The notes under the pieces were generated by a model. The model saw only the letters and a program-made list of their open reading frames with translations. It ran no database searches and was not told the DNA's origin. From positions 1 through 64,000 of the forward strand of contig JAPEHQ010000002.1 of the NCBI GenBank assembly GCA_027405735.1: DNA of 64,000 bases. Reading direction: 5' to 3'. A program made the translations under genes and the position numbers. This document shows positions 3,001 through 56,660 of the stretch, piece by piece. The stretch's first letter is position 1. Each line of letters opens with the position of its first letter. This DNA comes from Mucor racemosus (Eukaryota; Mucoromycota; Mucoromycetes; Mucorales; Mucoraceae).

Positions 3001-6000
3001 AGTTTCAACAATTTTAGAAGGAGAAAACCAGTCAAAAAGCGTGAATATTTGTACTGGTAATCGATTTTAGCAGAACCTTGTTTTCAAAAACGGTATCTAT
3101 CCATTCAACATTGTCCCGGCTACAAATTTTATTAAATGAAGCAAGGATGGTTACTATAGTGATTGTTTCATAAATTTGAATGATGCAGAAATGGCCAGCT
3201 TAAAATTGAGAAAGCGCATTTGAAATAAAAATAAGTCGAAAAGATACTAAGGTATTGCAATGATGGTTTTAAGTAAAGTCTACGTTATTTTTCATTCTCT
3301 ATCAGGATATCTAGTTTTTGGATCGTTGTGGAGACTTTTTTATTTTTTTATAAATTTTGTGAGAGCACTTTTTCTGTTATAGAGATCCATGAATGACAGG
3401 TATGCAAAGCTAAAACCATAGGATAGTACTCATTAGCATCTATCTAACGAATTTTACCTCGTCAAAAAATATTGATTTTCCATCGAGAAAATTGAGATTG
3501 AAGGACTGATTTTTGGTGATGACAAAAAGGATCCATTTTGGACGAGGATATACAAGGGTAAATTTTCGCCGACCAAAAAAATGATCAAAAAAATTAATAT
3601 CCCCACAAAAAATAGGGCTACAGCTACGTATAAATACTCATTTTGTAGATAATTTTGTTGCGCATAATGTAAAATAAAATATTTAGGGTTGCATTTGAAT
3701 GAAGGGTGCTTTTTGATCAAAAACCGTTAAATTTGACATTAAATTTACTAGGGATTTTATGAGAAAAATATTTTAAAATTTACACAGATCGATTCAGAAT
3801 TAAAAACTGAACCTAAAACATTTAATACGCTAGTTCAACTTACTATGTGTTTTTGTGAGTAATTAAACATACAAGGTTTTTTTTGGATTTTTTTGGATTT
3901 TTTTTCCATTTGAACACTTTTTTGAATTGAAGCTCAGTCACCTGTGCATATCTGATTATACAATTTTATATGGTGATATTCAAAATCGGAGCGTGCCCCC
4001 ATTTCAATAGATAATCAGGAAATGAAAAATGTAAGATATACTTGAGATGCTATAGAATATTGACAAAAAAGTTATTTCTATTCATCTTGATTTTTCAGCG
4101 AGTATAAAGGTTTCAAAAGTGAAACACTTGTTTTCTCCCCGCTTAAAATCTCAATCTAAGATGTCAAATATCTCGAGTTTTTATAGGCTTGAAAATAATA
4201 GTTTCTAAGCTAAATCTTCTTGTTTTTCAATGTTTTATTACATATTAAAGTTTCATGGATGGTTTTTTTTTGGACCCCCAAACCTCATAATTGTAAATCC
4301 TGTTTTTTTTTGTTTTTCTATTTTGTAGTTTTAACAATTTGGAGAATTTTCACGTTTTTTTACAAAAGTATCGCTAGGAATTAGGCAACCAAGTTTTCTG
4401 GGGTAAAATTGGCTGCTAAAAACGAATCTGCAATTATTTTATTGTATCTATCAATTTCACCGAGATTTTTGTGGTATAAATTTTGCTGGATTCTAGTATA
4501 TACGCCTATGGCAACCCTTAAATTTCATTATAAAGTCTTACTTGAACACATAATAAAAGTTGTTGAACAATTTATTTCACACATTTTGATATATAATTCT
4601 AAACGTCAAGTCTAGTTTCAACAATTTTAGAAGGAGAAAACCAGTCAAAAAGCGTGAATATTTGTACTGGTAATCGATTTTAGCAGAACCTTGTTTTCAA
4701 AAACGGTATCTATCCATTCAACATTGTCCCGGCTACAAATTTTATTAAATGAAGCAAGGATGGTTACTATAGTGATTGTTTCATAAATTTGAATGATGCA
4801 GAAATGGCCAGCTTAAAATTGAGAAAGCGCATTTGAAATAAAAATAAGTCGAAAAGATACTAAGGTATTGCAATGATGGTTATTAAGTAAAGTCTACGTT
4901 ATTTTTCATTCTCTATCAGGATATCTAGTTTTTGGATCGTTGTGGAGACTTTTTTATTTTTTTATAAATTTTGTGAGAGCACTTTTTCTGTTATAGAGAT
5001 CCATGAAGGGATGACAGGTATGCAAAGCTAAAACCATAGGATAGTACTCATTAGCATCTATCTAACGAATTTTACCTCGTCAAAAAATATTGATTTTCCA
5101 TCGAGAAAATTGAGATTGAAGGACTGATTTTTGGTGATGACAAAAAGGATCCATTTTGGACGAGGATATACAAGGGTAAATTTTCGCCGACCAAAAAAAA
5201 TGATCAAAAAAAATAATATCCCCACAAAAAATAGGGCTACAGCTACGTATAAATACTCATTTTGTAGATAATTTTGTTGCGCATAATGTAAAAATAAAAT
5301 ATTTTAGGGTTGCATTTGAATGAAGGGTGCTTTTTGATCAAAAACCGTTAAAATTTGACATTAAATTTACTAGGGATTTTATGAGAAAAATATTTTTAAA
5401 ATTTACACAGATCGATTCAGAATTAAAAACTGAACCTAAAACATTTAATACGCTAGTTCAACTTACTATGTGTTTTTGTGAGTAATTAAACATACAAGGT
5501 TTTTTTTGGATTTTTTTGGATTTTTTTTCCATTTGAACACTTTTTTGAATTGAAGCTCAGTCACCTGTGCATATCTGATTATACAATTTTATATGGTGAT
5601 ATTCAAAATCGGAGCGTGCCCCCATTTCAATAGATAATCAGGAAATGAAAAATGTAAGATATACTTGAGATGCTATAGAATATTGACAAAAAAGTTATTT
5701 CTATTCATCTTGATTTTTCAGCGAGTATAAAGGTTTCAAAAGTGAAACACTTGTTTTCTCCCCGCTTAAAATCTCAATCTAAGATGTCAAATATCTCGAG
5801 TTTTTATAGGCTTGAAAATAATAGTTTCTAAGCTAAATCTTCTTGTTTTTCAATGTTTTATTACATATTAAAGTTTCATGGATGGTTTTTTTTTGGACCC
5901 CCAAACCTCATAATTGTAAATCCTGTTTTTTTTTTGTTTTTCTATTTTGTAGTTTTAACAATTTGGAGAATTTTCACGTTTTTTTACAAAAGTATCGCTA

Positions 6001-20881: not shown

Positions 20882-22984
20882 ATGCTGATCAATACATTTA
20901 AATCGACTATTGCCCTATTAATCTCAACATCAGCATCTTTCATCGTTCATGCTCAATCTGGTATATAATTTGGACTTGGAATTGAGAATAAACTTTCTTG
21001 TCATACTGAATCTAAATTTAACAAATAGTTAAGAGTTCTGGAAGTTGCAATGCCTACCCAACCAATGCAACTTGTTCTGTAAATTATGGATGTTCTATAT
21101 AGAAATATTCCTTGTTACTAACTGTCATTTTTGATTTAGAACTACGTAGACTATAGCGTATTCCTACCCGATAAAGTAGCCATGTCTCAAGTGGAATCCC
21201 AATTACAACCGCTCGTTCAATTAGGGTCTTTACTTGGTGAAGTTAGTCCTGTTTGTTTTGATACATTTGCTCGATATCAATGTTCAAAAGCCTACCCAAA
21301 ATGTGTAACAACTAACTCTACTACAGGTAAATTAATTCTAAAATAACAATTTATAGTTGCATTAACCTTTTTATTTGTTATTTAGACATTAGTGTTTATT
21401 CTGCTTGTAGTTCAACATGTGAAGCAGTTAACATTGTCTGCGCTAGTCTTTTTGAAATGGCTGGCCAAACATCGCTTTTACCTAATTGCAGTACTGAAAT
21501 AACAAGTACAGGATTTGGATTACAAGCCGACGATGTGTGCAACAATATACCAACCAAATGTAATTAAATTCGTTATACAAAATTAATAACAGAACAAGTA
21601 ACTAAACCTTTCTTTTTATAGTGACTGAAGATCAAATCAAGAATGAAAAATTAAATTTATCTGCTGTACCTGCAGGTTTTGTTATGGCTAAATGTCCTGC
21701 TCCGTTTTTCACTGATCCTTTAGCCGCTGATAATTCAACAATCGATGACAAATACTGTCGATATGGCTGTTGTATTCCATGTCCAGCACAAAACTTGGCA
21801 AGTGCTCTCAAAATTAATTAAAAAGAGTATCACAATTAACGCTTGTTTTTAGTTTTACAAGGAAAATTGGGCTACAAGAGGATTTTTAGCAACTGATGTG
21901 ATACGTTTTGTATCAGCTGTTCTATCGCTCATTTTAGTAATTAGTTATTTAGTTTTACCCGACAAAAGAAGACATCCTTCGTTATTGATCCTCAATTTAT
22001 CCATCGCCATCTTTTTGTTCAGCATGGTAGTCTTTTTTTCGGTGGGTGATCCAAAGCGACTTCAATGTGCTGCTAATGGAATTTCTCCAGGCGAAATGGG
22101 CAACAATACATTATGTGCTGCTCAGGGCGCTATTTTGATCTTTGGTTCATTTGCAACATGCCTTTGGTGCGCTGCTTTGATTTTTAATTTACACGTACAC
22201 ACAGTTTGGAACTCTAATTTCTTTACAAATCGATACATTCTTTTGAATATTATTTGTTGGGGTATTCCTGCTGCTATCATGTCTATTGCTTTAGGATTAC
22301 ATGCCGTCAAATTTGAATTTGCTAATCTTTGTGTTGTGTCCATGAATTACATTTTCCCATTGTTTTTTTATCCATTAGCGGCAATTGTTTGTCCTAGTTT
22401 CCTTGTCCATATTGGAACTTTCTTTTATATTGCAAGAATTGCTGTTCGTGAAGGACTCGAATCTGACATGACACAGTCTCTATCAACAGGTACCATGACG
22501 GATCGTGCACCTGGTGTAAGTAGAAAGCATGTTATGGTGGCTGTCAAAATTCAATGGAGAGCATTGCTATTGGCTGTTGTAGCTATTGTTACTGTGTTGT
22601 TTTACTGGGTAAGTTGATTCATTCTATATATTAAGATACACATGTACTCAAATATACATTGCGCAGTTGTTCTACATGACACAGATGAGCCGCATGACAG
22701 AGTTACAAAATAATCCAACTCTTACATTGGATTGGCTTGAATGCATGTTGACACCTGGAAACACTCAAAACCAATGTGCTGATACAATCAGTTCTCATTT
22801 ACCTCCATTTTCTCTAATTATTGTTGCTGAAACATTAGTTAGTTCTATTGGTATTTGGTTGTTTATCATGTTTGGAAAGAGATCTTTATGGCGTGAATGG
22901 AATGATTTGATCTATGATATGAGAGTCAAATTTGGTACACGTGGAAGAGCCGAAAAAAATGGCGAACAGTTCTTTGCTCTTTAA
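20882..22984 (+). CDS. Frizzled/Smoothened-like seven-transmembrane receptor with cysteine-rich domain, 579 aa
   Basis: Predicted plasma-membrane GPCR of the fungal Frizzled-like class. Exons: 20882-20960, 21029-21078, 21140-21326, 21386-21559, 21622-21797, 21853-22608, 22667-22984; total 1740 nt, divisible by three. The intron after 21797 starts with GC (GCAAGT...TAG); all others are GT-AG. Residues 1-26 form a signal peptide. Residues about 30-180 carry ten cysteines in the order and spacing of a Frizzled CRD (SGSC, ATC, PVC, YQC, PKC, SAC, STC, IVC, PNC, DVC). A second Cys cluster (YCRYGCCIPCP) precedes seven hydrophobic segments starting near residue 236. The C-tail is short (KRSLWREWNDLIYD) and lacks the canonical KTxxxW Dishevelled-binding motif, so coupling differs from animal Wnt receptors. 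The start codon lies 299 bp after the PMT stop, same strand, suggesting a compact shared intergenic region. Ligand unknown. Confidence 0.88.
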
Positions 22985-27174: not shown

Positions 27175-27234
27175 GTGGGGCAGAAAAGTAGTCAAAATGA
27201 AAACGATATCTAAATTCATGTGGTGAGCATACAC
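27175..27234 (-). mobile_element. LINE fragment (C-terminal part of RT ORF)
   Basis: About 60 bp matches 29640-29696 inside the RT ORF of the neighbouring LINE (shared ACGATATCTAAATTCATGTG). It ends abruptly at the tRNA-Val 14-mer at 27235, just as a 5'-truncated LINE should. Its own 3' half is missing on the left. It is the oldest visible layer of the LINE stack. Confidence 0.7.
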
Positions 27235-27248
27235 GGTTTCTTGGTGTA
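27235..27248 (+). other. tRNA-Val nt 1-14, target-site duplication
   Basis: GGTTTCTTGGTGTA, identical to the first 14 bases of the intact tRNA-Val at 31561, followed directly by the LINE 3' tail (AATTAAAGTTTATTTATTTA on the plus strand). Confidence 0.9.
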
Positions 27249-27265
27249 AATTAAAGTTTATTTAT

Positions 27266-27730
27266 TTATAGAAAGAGAAGTATAGGCAAGGCGTGCAATG
27301 GCACATTATTTGCGGCTTCTAGAAGAGAATCCAAAATTAGATAATGGATAAAAGAAATTGAAAACTCTAAAGAAATAGACTCCAGGACTCGCAAAGTATC
27401 ATGAATAGGAAGAGAAGGAAGTATATACAAACAGGTAAGAGTCAAAGGACCCAACCGAATAGAAAGAGAATAAAGGCTATCCACCGTTAACCTGGAAACA
27501 GGGAGAGGGCAATCAGGATTTACAAGACAACAAATGCCTTTACTTCCCGGAGGTCCATACACATGCTCTTGACGCCAATCAGTAGGAAGCAGAGAAGACT
27601 TGGGAAGCCAAGTTTCCGTAATAAAGAGAACAGAGTAACATAAACAGTGTGAAAGAACATCCTGAATGACCTTGGTACTAAGACAACGGGCATTCCACAA
27701 ACCAATTGTAATGGGTACCGAGGTACTCAT
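27266..27730 (-). pseudogene. LINE ORF2, truncated endonuclease fused to 3' tail
   Basis: Begins MSTSVPITIGLWNARCLS and contains LFITETWLP and GICCLVN, the N-terminal blocks of an apurinic-like (APE/EEP) endonuclease (N and E of the catalytic set). After about 130 codons the reading frame runs into 3'-tail sequence shared with LINE copy 2, so the GDFN and SDH blocks and all of the RT are absent. It starts within the ORF1 stop codon (TAATG). Confidence 0.8.
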
Positions 27731-28632
27731 TATAATTCGGTTGAAGTAAGAGCAGAAGAAGAGACTGATGCAGCATCATTCATATCTTGATCACCAGAGC
27801 CAGAGTAGTTTGAGGAATTCTTGTCACCAAGAGTAGCCTGAGCATCCTCCTCATTGAGCCCGCCAATTTCCACAAAGAAACGAGCAACAGAGGGGGCAAC
27901 CGAAGGGCGGAGATACTTCACGACACGAATGCAACGTTCGTTCATGATATATTGCATTTTCGTTACCTTTTGATCATGAGAGAGGGTAGAGAGAGCAGGA
28001 TCACCAAGGAGGTCAGGGTTAGTAGGATCAAAGCCCTTAAGAATATCAATCTTAGCAGTGCTAAGAAGATCGAGCAAAGCAGGGATGTACTGGACATGTA
28101 CAAGAAGACCAGCAACGGAGCGACAAGGGAATGAGATGTCGAGGATACGAGATTTTTCAATCCCAAAAGAGGCGAGATCACTGCGGATTACACCACGAGT
28201 GAGACGCTTAGATAGGTGAAGGTAGATGTAATCATAACCTTTAGGGCCATTGTTGACTTGGTAGTGGCGGGCTTTAGCAGCGCGCTTCCTGGTGGAGTTA
28301 TTGGAAGGACTGGGGCGCTTAGCACCAACAGTAGCCCATGATGAGGCAGAGGTACCATTGGAAGCAGGAGGGTTAGTTGCAGGAGGTGGAGTGGTAGTAG
28401 CAGGTTGAGAGGTCTTGGAATTGGCCTGAGAATTTTTCTTAGTTTGGTCCTTGCTATTCAAAGCCTTGCTGAGAGCAGCTTCGAGATGAGCGACTTTGGA
28501 GCGAAGTTGAGTGTTCTCTTCGGCCAAAGTAGCTAGGTGAGTGACTTGGACTTGGAGGTCCGAGATAATAGTTGTCAAGTGGGGAATTTGCTGCAAAAGA
28601 GCAGTAATCTCCTCAGACGTGAAATTATCCAT
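27730..28632 (-). CDS. LINE ORF1 protein, 300 aa
   Basis: Nucleic-acid-binding structural protein of the LINE. The start at MDNFTSEE (28632) is chosen over the more upstream Met because the same start is conserved in the relic at 42156. Residues about 10-75 form a heptad-like coiled coil (LLQQIPHL...LATLAEENTQLRSKVAHLEAAL), followed by a Ser/Thr/Pro/Ala-rich linker, a basic patch (RKRAAKARH) and a globular region. There is no CCHC knuckle in this ORF. The stop overlaps the next start as TAATG (27730-27732), the arrangement used for stop-start translational coupling in some non-LTR elements such as SART1. The frame is fully open, so the copy is not old. Confidence 0.8.
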   Translation of the reverse strand: MDNFTSEEITALLQQIPHLTTIISDLQVQVTHLATLAEENTQLRSKVAHLEAALSKALNSKDQTKKNSQANSKTSQPATTTPPPATNPPASNGTSASSWATVGAKRPSPSNNSTRKRAAKARHYQVNNGPKGYDYIYLHLSKRLTRGVIRSDLASFGIEKSRILDISFPCRSVAGLLVHVQYIPALLDLLSTAKIDILKGFDPTNPDLLGDPALSTLSHDQKVTKMQYIMNERCIRVVKYLRPSVAPSVARFFVEIGGLNEEDAQATLGDKNSSNYSGSGDQDMNDAASVSSSALTSTEL

Positions 28633-29124
28633 CTGTCTAACGTCGTAAAAAAAGTCGAATAGAAGATGAACTAGTAGTTGTAGAAGTTTCAAAATTGGAC
28701 TGTAGGTTAATAAGAAGTACTAGTATATAGTTTCCAAATGTGAGAGATGGATGGACAAAATTGAGATGGATGGAAGAGTTTAAAGTTCACGATGAATCGA
28801 GGTAAAGGCTTCCCAGAGAAAAAGTGTTCAGAAAGTGAAATGTCATTACTGTAATGTACCTATAGCCGAAGGCTATTAGGTATTTTAGTTATGTTTTATA
28901 TGTTTAGTCTGTAAGGAACAACTATTAATAAATGTAGTAATAATAGATTAATATTAGAAAGAAGTAAAGTTTATTATTGAAGTATATACTCATAACTAGT
29001 AATGACTAAATACCGAACAGATCTATCGAACCGAACAAGCCGGAATGCACGTGACATAAATCACGTGAGCAAAACAATTTACCCTGACTATTTATTACAT
29101 CTAGCGCTTGCAACTAATATGAAA

Positions 29125-29138
29125 GGTTTCTTGGTGTA
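29125..29138 (+). other. tRNA-Val nt 1-14, target-site duplication
   Basis: Second copy of GGTTTCTTGGTGTA. Its left neighbour is the 5' end of LINE copy 1 and its right neighbour is the 3' tail of LINE copy 2. It pairs with nt 1-14 of the intact tRNA at 31561 as the duplication flanking LINE copy 2. Confidence 0.92.
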
Positions 29139-31560
29139 AATTAAAGTTTATTTATTTATAAAAGAGAAGTATAGGCAAGGCGTGCAATGGCACATTGTTT
29201 GCGACTTCTAGAAGATATTCTAAAGGTAGAAAATAGATAAAAGATAATGAAAACCCTAGTAAACAAAATAGGGAAAAAAAGAAAGAGTGTAGAAAACTAG
29301 CTAATGATAAATCTTAAGAGAATACAGGAAGATCAGTCCAGACCACTTGTTGTGTTAATTAAATGTGCACAATGTGGGGGAGCAGATCAACGAGATACAA
29401 TTAAGAAGTACGGAGACAGAGAGAAGCTTGAGCCTGAGCCCATTTTGTACCAGCATCTTGTTCTTCCTTGAGGACAGCCGAAGGTTTACAGATAGATTCA
29501 ATGTACCACAGAACTTGTAGGAGATCAGACCAAAATAGTGGAATAGGATCCAAAACCGAGGTAGGCAGAGCATTCAGAGCAGCATCAATACAGCAGTGAT
29601 TTTTAGGCACAACTGGGAAATTTTGAAACAAAATTTCAGGAATGGCAGGACAGTAATCAAAATGGAAACGATATCTAAATTCATGTGGTGAGCATACACA
29701 GGAGACAGGACGACCAGGGAGGAAATTAAGACGCCAACGAATCAGACGACTACGTTCTAACCGAGTAGCAGGCAGGTACAGAATAGGATCAACTTCCCAA
29801 CGAGGACGACAGACCATAAGGAGACGACCAACAAGATGTTTCTTGCTAGAATCAGATTCATTTAGAGCAATATCCCTTTCATCAAGAAATTGCTGTTCAT
29901 ACCGAGATAGAATAAAATTGCGAACATTGATCTTGGAGGTTTCATTAGCAATAGCATCCTTGTAGGCAACGTACGAACTATTTTGTAAGATCATACGATT
30001 CATACGACCACCAGGGTAACGAGCAGATATCCGTTTAAGTAGACAATTAGCAGAGAGAGATTCATAACGTAACGCATACTTTGTACGACAAATTTGAGTT
30101 CGCACCGCCATAGAGGGTAGATTGGTAATATGGCGAAGAGTAGCTACAGCTGTGTTTGGTCCACCACTGACCAACAAACGAAGACAACGAGATTGAGCAG
30201 CTTCCAAGGTTTTCAGGGCATGGCTGGTAAACTGAGTAATAGCCAGTCCATATTCCAGTTTTGGACGCACGAATGTTTGGTATATTCGAGTACAGAGAAG
30301 GAGAGAGAAACCAGAACGATTGACACCAACACGATTCAGCATTCGCATTGTGTTGATAGCACCAGGAGAACGAAGAGAAACCATTTCCATGGGAGCAAGA
30401 CCTTTATAGTCAAACGGCATTCCAAGGTACTTAAAAGTAGTAACAATTGGGAGAAGCTCGTTGTACAGTGTCAATGGTAGAATAGTATCTGAAATTCCAG
30501 TAACAGCGGGAGGTGCACCAGGAATAACCGCACATTTGGAGGGACTCCAGCGAAAGCCAAGAGTATCCGAGTGGTTAGCAGCAACCGTTAGCATAGATTG
30601 AACATCTTGAGGAGAGCCTATGAGCGCAACATCATCTGCAAAGAGAAGAGAGTTCACAAAAAGACGAGATCCACTTGTAGGATTAATAGAAGCAGCAGTA
30701 GTGTCAGGATTAGCAGCAGCAATAGTACGAAGTATATCTGGTAGAGAGTTGATATAAATTGAGTACAGTTGTGGAGATAGCACTGAGCCTTGAAGTACAC
30801 CAGTAGTCAGAGAAAAAGGTCTTGAAGAATGATTATCTATACATACTGAAACGGAAACATCCTCAAAGAGATGAGCAATTAGACCAAGAAATGGAGATGT
30901 AGCACCAGATAACCGAAGCTGTTCCCAAACTACTCGTCGATCAACTGTATCATAAGCTGCCGCAATATCTAGAAAACAGATATAAGGATAAGCACCATTT
31001 TTTCGGCGATAAGCACCAATTAGCTCGTGTAAGCAAAGAGCCTGATCTAACGGAGAACGACGAGCACGAAAGCCACCTTGAGCAATATCAATTTTGGGAG
31101 AATAATGTTGTAACAGAGGTGTAATAGCGACTTCGAGAATTTTTCTAAATACAGATGTTAAAGAAATTGGACGAAAGTTGCCAGGCTGTTTAGGATCACC
31201 CTTTTTGAATATTGGAAATACCGTAGCAGAACGCCAAGAGTCTGGAACGAAGCAATAACGCCAACAAAGGCGAAACAGGACACAGAGAAAAGCACTTAAA
31301 GGGCGAGCAATTGGACGCAGCATTTCAGCACAAATGTGATCAGCACCAGGAGCCTTTCTAATCGGAATCAATTTTAGAATAATATGTTCAATATTCCAAG
31401 CATCAAATTCAGAAAAGGTTTCCAAAGGAAAAGGAGTTGCAGGTGATACAGGTGGAGCTGGAGGACGACTAGTAGGAAGCAAATTACCAGAGAAAGTTTG
31501 AGCCAGATGAGAAGCCATGACAGAAACAGCTGAGGCAGGACCATCAGGGTGACTAAAAGT
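29139..31560 (-). mobile_element. LINE copy 2, 5'-truncated with intact RT
   Basis: 2422 bp inserted into tRNA-Val, 3' end at 29139 and truncated 5' end at 31560, where the complete tRNA-Val resumes. It is flanked by 14-bp duplications (29125-29138 and 31561-31574). It lacks the 5' UTR, ORF1 and endonuclease, keeping the RT and the cysteine/histidine C-terminus. The open RT frame and clean duplications suggest a recent insertion, the youngest layer next to the intact tRNA. Confidence 0.9.
29401..31560 (-). CDS. LINE ORF2 fragment: reverse transcriptase and C-terminal Cys/His region
   Basis: Open for about 720 codons within the element; the frame continues 25 codons further into antisense tRNA sequence, so there is no natural start. 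RT blocks in order: SATVFPIFKKGD, RPISLTSVFRKILE, QGGFRARRSPLDQALCL, FLDIAAAYDTV (motif A with catalytic Asp), GVLQGSVLSPQLYSIY (motif B), LLFADDVALIG (motif C with the FADD box), FKYLGMPFDYKG. The C-terminus has a Cys/His cluster (CVCSPHEFRYRFHFDYC) where LINEs carry a zinc knuckle. The catalytic aspartates are present, so the domain looks biochemically intact, but the 5' truncation makes the copy non-autonomous. Confidence 0.9.
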   Translation of the reverse strand, partial: TFSHPDGPASAVSVMASHLAQTFSGNLLPTSRPPAPPVSPATPFPLETFSEFDAWNIEHIILKLIPIRKAPGADHICAEMLRPIARPLSAFLCVLFRLCWRYCFVPDSWRSATVFPIFKKGDPKQPGNFRPISLTSVFRKILEVAITPLLQHYSPKIDIAQGGFRARRSPLDQALCLHELIGAYRRKNGAYPYICFLDIAAAYDTVDRRVVWEQLRLSGATSPFLGLIAHLFEDVSVSVCIDNHSSRPFSLTTGVLQGSVLSPQLYSIYINSLPDILRTIAAANPDTTAASINPTSGSRLFVNSLLFADDVALIGSPQDVQSMLTVAANHSDTLGFRWSPSKCAVIPGAPPAVTGISDTILPLTLYNELLPIVTTFKYLGMPFDYKGLAPMEMVSLRSPGAINTMRMLNRVGVNRSGFSLLLCTRIYQTFVRPKLEYGLAITQFTSHALKTLEAAQSRCLRLLVSGGPNTAVATLRHITNLPSMAVRTQICRTKYALRYESLSANCLLKRISARYPGGRMNRMILQNSSYVAYKDAIANETSKINVRNFILSRYEQQFLDERDIALNESDSSKKHLVGRLLMVCRPRWEVDPILYLPATRLERSRLIRWRLNFLPGRPVSCVCSPHEFRYRFHFDYCPAIPEILFQNFPVVPKNHCCIDAALNALPTSVLDPIPLFWSDLLQVLWYIESICKPSAVLKEEQDAGTKWAQAQASLCLRTS

Positions 31561-31634
31561 GGTTTCTTGGTGTAGTCGGTTATCACATCTGCTTAACACG
31601 CAGAAGGTCGCCAGTTCAAGTCTGGCAGAAATCA
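31561..31634 (+). tRNA. tRNA-Val(AAC), intact
   Basis: Full cloverleaf: acceptor GGTTTCT/AGAAATC with one G-U, D arm, anticodon stem TCTGC/GCAGA around the loop TTAACAC (anticodon AAC), T arm GCCAG/CTGGC with loop TTCAAGT, discriminator A, then a T-run terminator. No intron. Its first 14 bases are also the LINE target duplication, so the gene was left complete by the insertion on its left. Confidence 0.97.
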
Positions 31635-33099
31635 TTTTTTTGCATTTTTTTCTATTGATTTTAAAAAACGTCTTGCGAAATGCTGTTGCAAATCAATCAG
31701 CAATTTTCCTTTTTTTCTTAAATAAATTATCTGTCAAAAATAAACAAACAATCTTGATCCCCAAAAGTTATATTATACTTCCAGATTCTAGTTCAGAAGT
31801 AACACAAATCATACACGAAATTCACCAAACCTTATATACTATTGATTTAATCTCCCATTGTATTATTTTACAACTCATACAAAAGAACAACAGATTCAAT
31901 TACCATAAATACAACATAACCGAATATTGACAGGATCAATATCTGAAATCTTTGTCTAATCTTTCCAAATCTTTACTCAGTGATTATAAATCAACACATA
32001 TTCATGGAAATATACGGATGTAACAACATCTCATATCATTATAATCTACAAACTCAACTTTTTCTTTAGATGTCAGTAAAGACATTTTATTATCAAATTC
32101 AAATAACATTATCAACATCAAGGATGTTCTAACAGACAAACATTAGTATAAATAACAGCATTTAAAAAGAACAGTTAATAAACATATTGATGTATCATTC
32201 TTAAACCGGATCATGTCAAATCCAAAAAAGTAAACAATAACAGATCCGGAACCGGAAGTTTCTTAATTAAATATTAACTATACAAAATACAGTGCTCCTA
32301 AAAGCATGGTATAGAAGCATGGTACAAAGCATGATACTCCAGTGCGATATTCCAACATGATATACCAATATAACACATTACTACTATTAAATAATATCTA
32401 AACTACCTTATCACATCATTAATTCCCCAAATCAAACAGTATATAAACCCCATTAATTTCATTCCAATAAACGATATCTCTTTACTTGATTAAATTTCTA
32501 GTTTTTATTTAACCTAAGCATATTTTGATAGATCACATATCTTATTTCTTACTTATATTTTGATTGTATACTATTCTTCATATCATTTTTTATATTCTTT
32601 ACTTTATATTTACTATTTTATATAATCCCTTAAACTATTTTATATATATTTTATTGTACATTTTTTATTTTTCTTTATTCATTTCGTTTTATATAAAACA
32701 TTTATTATAGTTGGTGTTATATCAGAATCTAGATATAGCGCTACAGTAGTTGTATTATCAGGATATTGTTATTGTTACACCATCAATAACTATTGTATCA
32801 CTTGATAATCTCTTCTATATATAATCTCATTCTCTACATTGAATAAAACCACACCTTTTACTCTTGTCTAATTCTTATTAGTTTTGGTAAAACAGTTGGA
32901 CAACTTAAAACCTGGTGCTCATTTAATAGATATAACTGCATTGGCTATACTCTATTCTCTTATTCTTTATTTTATATTCACTTTACTACAATCTCAATTG
33001 TAACATTATATTAAGAAAAAAAAAGGAAAATTGCTGATTGATTTGCAACAGCATTTCGCAAGACGTTTTTTAAAATCAATAGAAAAAAATGCAAAAAAA

Positions 33100-33173
33100 T
33101 GATTTCTGCCAGACTTGAACTGGCGACCTTCTGCGTGTTAAGCAGATGTGATAACCGACTACACCAAGAAACC
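33100..33173 (-). tRNA. tRNA-Val(AAC), intact second copy
   Basis: The reverse complement is identical to the tRNA at 31561-31634, with the same anticodon AAC and a T-run terminator (A-run at 33084-33098 on the plus strand). The plus-strand LINE starts at the base next to its nucleotide 1. Confidence 0.97.
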
Positions 33174-33376
33174 TTTCATATTAGTTGCAAGCGCTAGATG
33201 TAATAAATAGTCAGGGTAAATTGTTTTGCTCACGTGATTTATGTCACGTGCATTCCGGCTTGTTCGGTTCGATAGATCTGTTCGGTATTTAGTCATTACT
33301 AGTTATGAGTACATAAGCTCATGTTATATACTTCAATAATAAACTTAACTTCTTTCTAATATAAATATATTACTAC

Positions 33377-33535
33377 TGTTGTATTCCACCTACTAGTATC
33401 GTACATTATCACTTTCTACAGTATCAATACATCTTACAATCTATTGACTACGACATGTATTGAAGTGCAAGTCTTGATATCGGATATAAGAAACTCCTAG
33501 CGTACCAAGTTTAATCCAGTAATTACCAAGAACGC
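33377..33535 (+). mobile_element. LTR-A 5' fragment inside the LINE 5' UTR
   Basis: Starts TGTTGTATTCCACC and follows the first 159 bp of the solo LTRs at 40308 and 43191 almost base for base, then breaks at AAGAACGC into LINE sequence (AAAGGGTAAGAGC). The likely history is LTR insertion in the 5' UTR followed by a deletion that removed the rest of the LTR and most of LINE ORF1. Confidence 0.85.
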
Positions 33536-33724
33536 AAAGGGTAAGAGCATTAACCTAGTTATTGCTCTTTCATCTACATCTTTTTGATATAGTACAGTGT
33601 CCTTATTCATTTAGTCACCACTCTCTCATCCACACCACCTTCAGCCTCTGCTTCCCAAGAGCAAGCTCTCCAATCACCCCAAGCGGCAAGTGACACAACC
33701 TCACAGTTATAAACGAATCCCTAG

Positions 33725-34835
33725 GGATAACCTTGTGGAATGCTCAGGGCATCACAAGTGAAACAATGGATTTTATATTCGAAAACCTACCTATGCAAAC
33801 TAACTTATTTTTCATTACCGAAACATGGCTTTCGGTTACACCGCTCTCTATCCACTACATGGTCCCAAATCCATAATTTTGGCATTAACGTTGAAAGGTC
33901 TAGCCGAGGACAACTTGGTATATCCCTACTCATCAACCCATTATTTCCATATACCGTCCTCCCTCTACCTGTTTATCAAGATTCCAATTATATCCTCCCC
34001 TGTCAATGCCAAACTTATTTGATTATATGTACATATTTACCTCCTACCCTAGATGATCAATTCAGCTTTGATCTTTTAACAGACTCACTAGAACACTACT
34101 ATGCTAACAACTATGAATTTGAGCACCTCCTGCTTTGCGGTGATTTCAACACAAGACTAGGTGATTACGTTGGAGATAAACGTCAAAATAGCAGGTACCA
34201 TCTCTTTTTCGAGTTCCTTCAAGCACATAGCCTTACTTTATTACACAATGCCGACCATGCCTTCCGCGTTCCCACATATATTAAAGGAACTGAAGCTAAC
34301 CCAACAGACAAGACCAGTATCATTGATTTCTTTCTCACCACCCATCCATCTGACATGACTGGTATATCCATGAATATTAACACTGAAACATACTTGGGAT
34401 CAGACTATAAAATATTCTATTTTGAATTACCCCACTATTTTAATGAACCTCCTATTACTAACACTCATCCACGTATTCTTTGGAATATAAACAAGTTCAA
34501 ACCTTCTAAACGTCAACCCACTCGTCATCTCGGATTCATTCTAAAGTATTGTGATTCTATTACACCATCTTTGAATAGTTTTTCAGAGCTAGTAGATCCT
34601 ATATTTTTGTCCTCTATACCCGATCACCACAGCAAACAAGAATATATCGATGAAATGAATACCAAATTGATTAGCATTATACATAGCTCATTGGATGCTA
34701 CCATCAAGCGAAAGATCCCACGCCCTAGGACCTGGAAATGGTTTTATACACAGCATCTAGCTGATGCTTGCCATAAACGGGAGAGTTTATACAAAAAATG
34801 GAAACATGCTAATTATATTAACAAAATCTTATATT
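33725..34835 (+). pseudogene. LINE copy 3 endonuclease, frameshifted
   Basis: Starts with LWNAQGITSET and LFFITETWLS in one frame, then shifts into the frame that carries RGQLGISLLINP, LLCGDFNTRLG, DFFLTTHPSD and LGSDYKIFYFEL. These are the blocks of an APE-like endonuclease. The terminal catalytic His of the SDH box is Tyr here (GSDYK, near 34400), so the nuclease is probably dead even apart from the frameshift. Confidence 0.8.
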
Positions 34836-37208
34836 GGAAACAGTTTCAAGAGGCTGCAGATATTGTCAAATCTTTAGTTCAAAAAAACAAGCACCATTAT
34901 TTCAAAAATTTTGTGAAAAACTCTCCACGTCTGAATTTAGCAAAGCATCTAATAAGCTCAAAAACATTAAGCGTAGTAAGGCTCATGTATTTAGTAATGT
35001 ATTTCAACATATTGATGGTCGTCAAGCTGGGGTCAACTCAATCACCACATCATGGCAAGATACGTATGATGGTAAGTATATCAATCCTGATATTGAACAG
35101 GTACCAGTTGCGATGCCCCCTTGTTACGAGGGTTTTGATACTACTATCTTATTTGACATCGACAATGTTACACATGCCATTAAATGTTTACCAACAAGCA
35201 AAGCACCAGGGTTTGATCATATCAAATCTGAAATGCTGAAACCCATTATTGACCTCATATCTCCTATTTTACATCAACTTTTCTCACTATGCTGGAAGTA
35301 TGCTCTCATACCCTCAGCCTTTAATCATGCTCAAGTCATACCAATTTACAAAAAAGGGCCAGTAAATGATCCAAAAAATCATAGACTCATCAGCCTTATA
35401 TGTACATTCCGCAAAATTTATGAAATTTATCTTTACAATGTACCTCCACCTCGTTCTGTGCCACTTGACCCTGTACAAGGTGGTTTTCGACATCAACGTA
35501 GCACATTGGATCAAGCATTATGCCTTCAGGAACTTACAATCAGGTACAAACACAAAAATAGGGAATTTCCTATTCTTTTATTTTTAGACATCAAATCCGC
35601 CTATGATACAGCTGATCGAAATATAATGTGGAAGACTCTTCGTGATCAAAATATTGATACACCACTACTAACAACTATGCAATTATTATTTAACCAAGTC
35701 CACATAGAAGTTCTACTCAATGGACATATCTCATCCGCTCCTTTTATGCCTTCAACAGGTGTTCTTCAAGGTTCAACTCTCTCTCCCCACTTATATTCAA
35801 TCTATATCAATTCACTCGCTCAGACTCTCCGCAATGAGCCCCTCTCCACGCATTCCATTTATTCACAAGTTTGTGCACCATCCTCCATAATGGTTCCTGG
35901 TAATAACAATTCACTCATTTTAAACTCACTATTTTTTGCAGATGATGTAGTCATTCTAGGAAATGCTAATAATGCTCAAGCCCTTCTCAATTTAGCGGAA
36001 CAACACTCAATTTCCTTAGGTTATAGATGGAATCCTCTCAAATCCGCTTTAATTCTCCTCCTCACCTAATCTCCGCTATTCCAACCCCCATCTATACCAT
36101 ATATAATCAATATATACCCTCTGTCAATAACTTTAAATACCTCCGTATTTATTTCAACCACAAAGGAATTGATAACAAGCAAATGCTACTCCACAATGCT
36201 ACTAAAGGGTCTCAAGCCATGAACCTTTCACACTCATTGGGGGCCAATGCCACTGGGTTTGACAAACAATTATCATTTAAAATTTACAAATGCTTTATTA
36301 GACCAATACTTGAATATGCTCTCCCATTACTAACCCCCACTAATACCGAATTTAAACCTATAGAAAAAGCACAGGACAATGCATGCCGTCTCATTATGGA
36401 TGGTCATAAATCCTCTTCAACACAAGTAATAAAGCATATGAATAATATGGCCAATATGAGTGATCGTATGGTCGCATTATGTGCAAAAAATCTTGTGCGG
36501 GTCAACCAACTACCATCTGATAATTTACTTTCATTATTCATACAACTACTCACCACCCAAGCTTGTCATCTTAAAAAGCTTCAACGTCGCAACCATATTT
36601 GGCAACAATTGATTGCATCTCTCACAATAAATAGATCAACTCGTCAGATTATTATCGCAACACCTGATCTCAAAGATCAAATCAACCGATACCTCTTAGA
36701 TCAATGGCACAAAACTCAAGATAAATTTGTTTACGCTGGTCACTGCCGTCCTACTCTGGGAATAGATCCAATCATGCACTTACCAATGACCAACCACGAA
36801 AGAAGCCGCTTACTCCGTTGGCGCATGGGATGGCTTCCTGACAAACCACAAGCTTGCCGTAATTGTAATCAACTCAATACACTCACTACTCAACATCATG
36901 TTGTAGCGTGTTATCAGATCAACGAAAATTTGAATTCAGAAATTAATGCATTTTTGAATACTATTCCAAGATTACCACCAACATCCTCAGCAGCTAAATT
37001 TTATTGGAAAACCCATTGGGCTGTTTTACAGCAATTTTTGTTCAACGTAGAAGCTATCTGCCTACCACCAGATAAAGTTATCAATCCCGACTCCTATACA
37101 GATCATTCTCCTTTTATTGATTGGATCAATAACTTATCTAGATTATCTTCTCCGGAACCGGCTCACACGGCTCCCATTCCGGAAGCTGAGACTCAACATT
37201 CTGCATAA
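34834..37208 (+). pseudogene. LINE copy 3 reverse transcriptase and zinc knuckle, frameshifted
   Basis: Two overlapping frames (34834-36069 and 36027-37208) carry QVIPIYKKGP, HRLISLICTFRKIYE, QGGFRHQRSTLDQALCL, FLDIKSAYDTA (motif A), GVLQGSTLSPHLYSIYINSL (motif B), LFFADDVVILG (motif C), then NNFKYLRIYFNHKG. The C-terminal piece has a CCHC knuckle CRNC...HHVVAC. A frameshift near 36050 and another where this frame joins the endonuclease frame break the ORF. Family membership is clear and activity is lost. Confidence 0.87.
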
Positions 37209-37411
37209 CTTTTCTTTCTTGTACCTGCGATCATTACTGCTTTTTTTTCCTTTTATTTTTTATCATCGATCAGATGATTTTTTCGATCCATTGCTCATTA
37301 TAAAAAGTCGGGGGGGGAGTAACTAGTACTCACGGGTCCATTTCATGGATATCCACCTTATCCGCAATTCATTACATATAACTTCTTTTATAATAATAAA
37401 GCTTATACTTT

Positions 37412-37428
37412 GACTACACCAAGAAACC
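37412..37428 (-). other. tRNA-Val nt 1-17, target-site duplication
   Basis: GACTACACCAAGAAACC on the plus strand, the reverse complement of the tRNA-Val 5' end. It is followed by TTTCATATTAATGTCAAGTG, which resembles the LINE 5' end (TTTCATATTAGTTGCAAGCG), so an older LINE 5' remnant may lie to the right, degenerating by about 37475. Confidence 0.88.
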
Positions 37429-41507: not shown

Positions 41508-41960
41508 AAGAAAAGTGATTTTATCAAATGGACAGAAAGCATGCAGATAATATAAGCCCAATGAAAGTAAAGGATTTAAATAATAGTTGTTAAATCAACC
41601 CAATAAATAAATAATGACATTAATAGTAGATCATCCAATGAAGCAAAATATCTGGGTGTTACAATTTAAAACAGATCAGTAATAAGCAAATATTTGTTGA
41701 AATCAAAAGAATACTAGCAAATAAAATGACGTTTTTTTCTCATGCAAATGCCAATAATAGTGGCATAATATTTTAGCTGAACACGGTGTAATACTGTGGT
41801 AATATGGCCAAAATGAGCGAATAAAAAAAGATTTAGGAAAATAAAGAGCCAATAGAAAGTATCGATTGTTGATTAAAACGTTGAAATATGCACGTAATAT
41901 GCAAGCATTACCATCGTATTCCGCAAGGTATTATGAGCGTATTACCACACTAAGAAACCA
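41508..41960 (+). repeat. Dispersed repeat family E1, most complete copy
   Basis: Matches the inverted two-part copy at 25500-24430: AAGTGATTTTATC(A/G)AA, AAGTAAAGGAT, AACCCAATAAAT, TAGTAGATCATCCAATGAAG, AATAGTGGCATA, then GGTAATATGGCCAAAATGAG and AAAACGTTG. Ends near GTATTACCACAC. Non-coding. Probable non-autonomous element, but I could not define terminal inverted repeats. Confidence 0.65.
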
Positions 41961-42665
41961 CCTTTCTTTCACTGATTGAACTTTTTTTTCTCGAAAAACG
42001 TTTAACCCGATTCATCGTGAACTCCAAGCTCTTCCATCCACCTCCCACATTTGGAAACTATATACGAGCACTTCTTATTAACCTACAGTCCAATTTTCAA
42101 ACTTCTACAACTACTAGTTCACCTTCTATTCGACTTTTTTTACGACGTTAGACAGATGGATAATTTCACGTCTGAGGAGATTACTGTAATTTTGCAGTAA
42201 ATTCCCCATCTGACAGCTACTATCTCGGACATCCAATTGCAAGTCACTCACCTAGCTACTTTGGCTGAAGAGAACACTCAACTTCGCTCCAAAGTCGCTC
42301 ATCTCAAAGCTGCCCTCAGCAAGGACCAATCTAAGAGAAATTCCCATACTACCCCAAAGCTACTCCTCCCTCTCAACCTCTTGCTTCCAATAATTTAACT
42401 CGTAAGCGTGCTGCTAAGGTTCACCATTATCAAATTAATAATGGCCCTAATGCTCTTTTAGGAGTACAAAATGGACTAATATGGAAATTTGAAAAATTTA
42501 GAAGTACCGTTACTTATGAACATTTTACCAACACAGGTTGCATTAATATCACTTCTCTTTGCCATCCGCCATTATTTGGATTCTGATGAGAACGAAGAAA
42601 TTTGTGATCATTATTTGTCTTTGGAGTTCCAATATATTAATAGCATAGTGTATGCTGCTGGGTTA
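41947..42665 (+). pseudogene. Chimeric LINE relic: LINE-A 5' UTR and ORF1 start joined to LINE-B ORF1 piece
   Basis: 41990-42450 matches the 5' UTR and first third of ORF1 of LINE copy 1 (MDNFTSEEIT at 42156, coiled coil, basic RKRAAKVHHYQINNGPN), with an in-frame stop after ILQ and internal deletions. At about 42460 it switches to sequence like LINE-B ORF1: the LEFQ motif near 42622 and the GCI/LNIT-like block before it parallel 39030-39110. The bases ACACTAAGAAACC at 41947 resemble a mutated tRNA-Val 5' end, suggesting yet another insertion at the same target. Confidence 0.65.
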
Positions 42666-56270: not shown

Positions 56271-56660
56271 AAAAAGAAATAAAGTAGTATTCATACATCA
56301 TAGTAATAATAATAATAATTAATAAAGCGAGATCATTATCTTAGAATATTAATGTACAATAATTAGCTGAAATGTCAAAAGCAGATGGCATCTTGATTCA
56401 ACGCAATCTGTCGAATGTGATCAATTTACATGTTCCGTAGGCCTATTGTTGTTAATGTGTATAGTTACCGGGGTTACTAAATCATTTCATCACGAGTGAT
56501 CTAAATGTAAAAAAGTAATGATCAATTCCTTGTCTTGCCTGGATCTGCTAAATCATTTCTATAAAGTTATCACACATTACAAACAACAAAATGAGAGAAT
56601 CTAAAAAAAAAAAAAAAAGCTTCTTAAACGTCTCACGTAAAGCGTCGTTCAGAAAAAATA
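56271..56660. other. SEC24 3' region
   Basis: Contains ATAATAATAATAAT followed by AATAAAG about 45-60 bp after the SEC24 stop, a plausible polyadenylation region, then unremarkable AT-rich sequence and the T-run terminator of the minus-strand tRNA (A-run at 56653-56658). Confidence 0.5.

Follow-up and report, generated by a model that had tools for sequence, protein, structure and literature searches.

The first 64 kb of contig C2 of the Mucor racemosus assembly (53.2 Mb, 54 contigs), here called the window, contain long interspersed nuclear elements (LINEs) whose ends are joined to the gene of tRNA-Val(AAC). We observe that these elements and their relatives elsewhere in the genome are very probably LINEs of the Mucorales with an apurinic-like endonuclease (APE) that target the A box within tRNA genes for insertion. 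The LINE 3' end is attached after tRNA nucleotide (nt) 14, with a duplication of nt 1-14; on the LINE 5' side, the element faces a complete tRNA gene in head-to-head orientation. At least four families, forming one lineage, share this A-box specificity, which concerns several tRNA genes. A preliminary description of the window had proposed insertion at one site within tRNA-Val, with the target kept whole. This agrees with the 3' ends of one LINE family of the window, named V, throughout the genome (4/4), while the lineage is not confined to tRNA-Val. The analysis covers this one genome, and insertion is read from its sequence products.

A search of the genome with the 3' untranslated region (UTR) of family V returned four copies, and 4/4 join tRNA-Val(AAC) directly after nt 14; none of these 3' ends is flanked by unrelated sequence. 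The two long copies, C2:82205-86986 (4782 bp) and C10:2110505-2115184 (4680 bp), are 99.8% identical over 4675 bp and keep both open reading frames (ORFs) open, ORF1 with 300 aa from the first ATG and ORF2 with 1126 aa. A complete 74-bp tRNA gene is present at the LINE 5' side in three V copies. The three copies with an intact 5' junction begin at different points of the element, yet all abut tRNA nt 1, and in the three copies read at both ends the stub corresponds to the start of the complete tRNA at the opposite end. The V target reads TGGTGTA at nt 8-14.

Ten complete tRNA-Val(AAC) genes occur genome-wide, 74/74 identical to one another, and seven of them carry no family V element at nt 1. 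Their first 14 nt, GGTTTCTTGGTGTA, were found at 16 places in the genome: the ten complete genes, five LINE 3' ends (window positions 27235, 29125 and 37428; C2:87000; C10:2115198) and one unrelated place (C7:415370). As a control for chance, the same 14-mer read backwards has no occurrence in the whole genome. Several tRNA-Val genes form inverted pairs (31561-31725 with 33006-33173; C10:2100798 with 2110504; C4:324498 with 325666), and the arms of the C4 pair extend over 4443 bp with 99.9% identity.

Copy A of family V in the window (29139..31560, minus strand) is a 5'-truncated copy that comprises most of ORF2, including the reverse transcriptase (RT) domain, and the 3' UTR, and is 100% identical over 2422 bp to the copy at C2:82205-86986. 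Its 5' end abuts nt 1 of the complete tRNA-Val gene at 31561..31634 (plus strand; junction 31560/31561), the regenerated gene, and its 3' end joins nt 14 at 29138/29139. The other arm of the inverted repeat carries a second complete tRNA-Val gene at 33100..33173 (minus strand), the empty paralog of this site. Both genes had been described as intact and identical, and indeed ARAGORN reports them as complete and they agree over all 74 nt. When the arms are compared (33377-33160 with 28936-29138, and 33173-33006 with 31561-31725), the two alignments overlap by 14 bp, at 33160-33173; in the filled arm, exactly these bases form the target-site duplication at 29125..29138 (plus strand). The same was found on C10, where the filled locus has an empty paralog at C10:2100798. 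Two alignments link them, one of 2316 bp (99.8%) and one of 659 bp (99.4%), and in the empty locus they share positions 2799-2812, which are exactly tRNA nt 1-14. The earlier proposal that the target duplication is the tRNA start is thus borne out by two empty/filled comparisons, each giving exactly 14 bp.

Copy B of family V (27249..28840, minus strand) is older, 89-93% identical, and internally deleted. The deletion brings ORF1 and the start of ORF2 up to the 3' end, and the segments 27368-28840 and 27249-27369 align with parts that lie apart in a full V copy. The 3' end of copy B joins nt 14 of a tRNA-Val stub (nt 1-14, 27235..27248, plus strand) at 27248/27249. The preliminary description had correctly placed the 3' joins of copies A and B, and that of a further element at 37411/37412, after nt 14-17. 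Its list of 5' ends at tRNA nt 1 was correct for 31560/31561 and has to be revised elsewhere. LINE 5' ends at 29124 and 33173 are rejected: 28838..29124 (minus strand) is not LINE sequence but the 27-bp 5' flank of the host tRNA (29098-29124) and, beyond it, a dispersed repeat (~28838-29097), the same order recurs at 33174-33377, and the gene there is the empty paralog. At 27234, a 56-bp remnant of the V ORF2 region (27179..27234, minus strand, 93% identical) does abut nt 1 of the stub and lacks a 3' end. Further to the right, the 5' part of an old V copy (41960..42450, plus strand; segments 79% and 76% identical, ORF1 match 72-74% identity) is directly preceded by a decayed tRNA-Val nt 1-14 (12/14 bases) at 41946..41959 (minus strand). 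The dispersed repeat of ~260 bp (28838-29097, 33201-33377), found at many other places, is 27 bp away from tRNA-Val on its upstream side in both arms; similar sequence also occurs upstream of a tRNA-Thr site on C17 (L076). It may be a solo long terminal repeat (LTR) of a tRNA-seeking element.

The element joined at 37411/37412 belongs to a second LINE family, LINE+ (33536..37411, plus strand; left boundary approximate), with endonuclease (EN) and RT regions in a frame broken into three overlapping ORFs. By segment, it is 42% and 28% identical to V ORF2, and its 3' part occurs once in the genome. The stub at its 3' end, tRNA-Val nt 17-1 (37412..37428, minus strand), places the join after nt 17, or after nt 14 if three bases agree by chance; nt 15-17 could be such a chance overlap with the element's own end. 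To the left of LINE+, 33374-33535 is an unrelated, very abundant repeat of ~160 bp, with 1755 first-look candidates of which 40 were scored.

A protein search of the genome for V relatives gave 165 candidates, of which the best 60 were scored. Among these, two sister families, S1 and S2, are 47-48% identical to V in protein sequence. Their 3' ends run into TGAGCTACATCCCC and similar sequences, the reverse complement of tRNA nt 1-14. A DNA search located at least 29 such 3' ends (40 rows minus 11 that match 5' sequence only), and 27 of the 29 found lie at tRNA nt 14: 18 of 20 judged by letters (T8 and A14) and nine judged by identity, with 100% over the full length of the junction-bearing query. 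At the opposite side, 26 of the 27 5' ends found lie at tRNA nt 1. Eleven of them abut a complete tRNA called by ARAGORN, namely Ala(AGC) in seven cases and Thr(AGT), Thr(TGT), Ile(AAT) and Phe(GAA) in one each; the others abut a stub, recognised by letters (6) or by identity (9). One sister copy is ~10 bases short at its 5' end, and one of a set of 14 stretches (L089) fell inside an element. The same 14 nt stand at both ends in 8/8 sister copies read at both ends. At C7:2646874 and C7:2651667 the site is GCCTAGCTAGCTCA, identical to the opening 14 bases of tRNA-Lys(CTT) of the window; the sequence read there showed no complete tRNA. All fitting S targets read by letters show TRGCTCA at nt 8-14, while nt 1-7 are quite variable. 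The choice of tRNA differs by family: V was found only in Val(AAC) (4/4), S1 mostly in Ala and S2 in several tRNA genes. As a side observation, a CTTTAA-like motif is common to the last bases of the V, S1 and S2 3' ends, beside the presumed priming site.

Since tRNA sequence stands at both ends of every well-preserved copy, one might take it for a component that the element brings with it, as a tRNA-LINE chimera would. The preliminary description had named such a carried fragment as a finding that would count against its proposal; we find that the piece varies by locus (Val, Ala, Thr, Ile, Phe, Lys-like). Copies within a single family have different tRNAs, each in agreement with the stub at the opposite end of its element (8/8); moreover, the same tRNA is found in empty paralogs without a LINE, and the flanks beyond the tRNA differ at most loci. 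The chimera is refuted by the empty sites and the locus-matched stubs, and we consider it scarcely conceivable. Hardly more credible is an origin of the joins by segmental duplication or repeat recombination instead of retrotransposition. The tRNA-Val genes do lie in inverted repeats, and the window shows a rearrangement in its left arm, with a dispersed repeat between copy B and the tRNA. Recombination alone is rejected, however, on the same base-exact junction in four families and at many loci, on the 14-bp duplication, and on V copies with three different 5' truncation points that all abut nt 1.

Several observations weigh against insertion at this site of tRNA genes. Two of the 29 sister 3' ends do not fit: at C5:1106729 the 3' end joins TGGAGTTCAAGTCA, where A14 is present, T8 is absent and no tRNA was seen, and at C10:158922 the 3' end is broken. 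The 5' end at C1:3121289 lacks a tRNA (1/27), and extra bases occur at two 5' junctions, six at C1:4461319 and one at C8:11737. No tRNA was found at the guessed 5' ends L107 and L108; these copies look 5'-truncated, and the guess is probably off. In the window, neither copy B nor LINE+ has a tRNA at its 5' end, the 5' junction of LINE+ being lost among other repeats.

The insertion products suggest how target-primed integration at the A box may proceed. On the tRNA-Val sense strand, GGTTTCTTGGTGTA passes directly to the complement of the LINE 3' terminus, and every target seen has A14 and, six bases upstream of it, T8. Nearly all tRNAs have these two bases, which belong to the A box. The element's endonuclease would nick the tRNA sense strand right after A14, and the freed 3' end would prime reverse transcription of the LINE RNA, with a cut in the opposite strand 14 bp away at tRNA nt 1; repair would duplicate nt 1-14. 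As the far side would receive no more than these 14 nt, the tRNA with its internal promoter would stay whole and could be hit again.

A different way to reach the same position would be docking on the RNA polymerase III (Pol III) factors TFIIIC/TFIIIB, as proposed for Dictyostelium TRE5, with a fixed offset setting the nick at A14. Seven kinds of tRNA genes are hit at one position, within the factor-binding box, and the S families tolerate quite different nt 1-7; both points agree with docking. On the other hand, the junction is base-exact and shows no scatter, Val(AAC) is the one target found for V (4/4) although the same factors bind all tRNA genes, and the fitting S targets share TRGCTCA at nt 8-14 where the V target has TGGTGTA. 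The family-specific choice of tRNA favours a reading of the DNA over factor docking, which we regard as possible but unlikely.

If the tRNA can be hit again, head-to-tail stacks should result, with the newest copy adjoining the tRNA. This prediction of repeated insertion into a regenerated tRNA gene is in good agreement with the head-to-tail LINE copies that are separated by the 14-nt tRNA stub alone. A single complete tRNA-Ala on C8 has a stack of one S2 and one S1 copy next to it, and on C22 a tRNA-Thr stub connects an S1 copy with the 3' end of a further element, which has a V-ORF1-like ORF (29%, E=9e-17) and for which no ORF2 was found within the 4.2 kb read. Some sister relatives among the best 60 of the 165 candidates recur head to tail with a period of 4806 bp on C8, C35 and C37. 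The age order is based on one stack, that of the window (copy A 100%, copy B 93%, remnant 93%); in the S1 arrays, the copies differ too little for ordering. The ends of contigs C8, C16, C35 and C37 are assembly breaks within stacked LINE arrays.

Pfam identifies the RT domain RVT_1 in V (E=3.1e-23) and in LINE+ (E=1.4e-20). The RT is of non-LTR type, and the nearest solved chains are the R2 and human L1 ORF2 proteins. The apurinic-like endonuclease domain PF14529 is found in LINE+ (E=4.3e-11) and is precomputed for P0002, a protein 100% identical to V ORF2. The EN-like and RT-like motifs, which we take to denote these two activities, are uninterrupted in V ORF2. A non-LTR RT, an N-terminal endonuclease, a 14-bp target-site duplication and variable 5' truncation place the elements among the APE-type LINEs. 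R2-type LINEs lack an APE domain and carry a restriction-like endonuclease C-terminal to the RT; the elements here differ in having the APE-type domain, and no search was aimed at a C-terminal endonuclease. No LTRs were seen in the element ends read, although no search was aimed at them. The ORF1 stop and ORF2 start of V overlap as TAATG (L029, ~5340-5346), which suggests coupled translation. Close protein homologs, considered without genomic context, exist in Rhizopus, Mucor and Phycomyces; a scan of viral contigs gave no relatives. As a control, we considered another LINE family of the same genome, which ends in poly(A) followed by differing DNA (L103, L104). ARAGORN found no tRNA in any of the four control flanks L103-L106; L105 and L106 are alike beyond a poly(A)-like stretch, and their ends were not reached.

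Two observations concern other parts of the window. Exons of a Sec24 protein could be assembled (88% identity to Mucor lusitanicus, 83-84% to Parasitella parasitica), which points to a Mucor-like host within the Mucorales, and 21898-22617 is an exon of a Frizzled / cAMP-receptor-like membrane protein. In addition, an ACGTCTYRCG-like motif recurs in either orientation tens of bases 3' of tRNA-Val, tRNA-Ala and tRNA-Lys (e.g., 56580-56659).

Insertion into multicopy RNA genes is familiar from other elements. The R-elements interrupt the rRNA gene, and SLACS/CRE elements insert with a duplication near the start of spliced-leader genes, which are small RNA genes, but use a restriction-like endonuclease and a different target. 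R1/R2, Mutsu and Keno, among others (PMC3706591), likewise insert base-exactly, but into other RNA genes. Utopia is a further LINE of this kind. That some non-LTR lineages target tRNA genes is stated in general terms (PMC8869645). Dictyostelid TRE5/TRE3 and NLTR-A are, like the elements reported here, non-LTR elements tied to tRNA genes; they are described as lying outside the tRNA, ~50 bp upstream, ~100 bp downstream or, for NLTR-A, 2-6 bp upstream of the mature tRNA, the closest placement described (PMC5006619). In our case, unlike TRE and NLTR-A, the LINE enters the gene itself, after nt 14, and duplicates tRNA nt 1-14. NLTR-A further has an RNH domain (PMC5006619), which Pfam did not find in V. 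Dewa inserts in a tRNA-Leu spacer, and TRE5-A is not inside its target (PMC3706591); in Rhizopus, Ty3-like LTR elements are reported near tRNA genes (PMC2699053). Dada DNA transposons do insert inside tRNA genes, several families at A-box nt 8-13 with duplication of TAGCTC, but they employ a DDE transposase, a 6-7 bp duplication and no reverse transcription (PMC3706591, PMC8869645), where the present elements have an RT and a 14-bp duplication. Because their duplication covers only 6-7 bp at nt 8-13, Dada elements cannot restore a whole tRNA gene. Grem-LINE1 of Mucor, a LINE of the same fungal order that we compared by description only, is pericentromeric and has a zf-RVT domain (PMC7377519); Pfam reports no zf-RVT (PF13966) at E<=0.01 in the 744-aa V stretch or the LINE+ ORFs. 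A search of a collection of open-access papers gave no LINE inserted inside tRNA genes; with Repbase and subscription papers outside its scope, an earlier record is possible.

These elements represent a target solution for which we found no described counterpart, insertion inside an essential gene without gene loss, and as the preliminary description suggested, the tRNA would offer them a low-cost niche. Paralogous LINE families that differ in their choice of tRNA and keep one cut position are useful for understanding how LINE endonucleases read their targets, while stacked copies provide a relative order of insertion. The complete tRNA gene kept beside each insertion could also interest the study of harmless integration sites. 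Tentatively, and with considerable doubt, we propose a wider picture: a whole Mucorales LINE lineage devoted to the tRNA A box, whose families switch tRNA species but keep the cut at A14, with the tRNA as a self-renewing dock that may also supply the promoter and each stack as a time-ordered record. If this is true, the tRNA would be both landing pad and power supply for the LINE.

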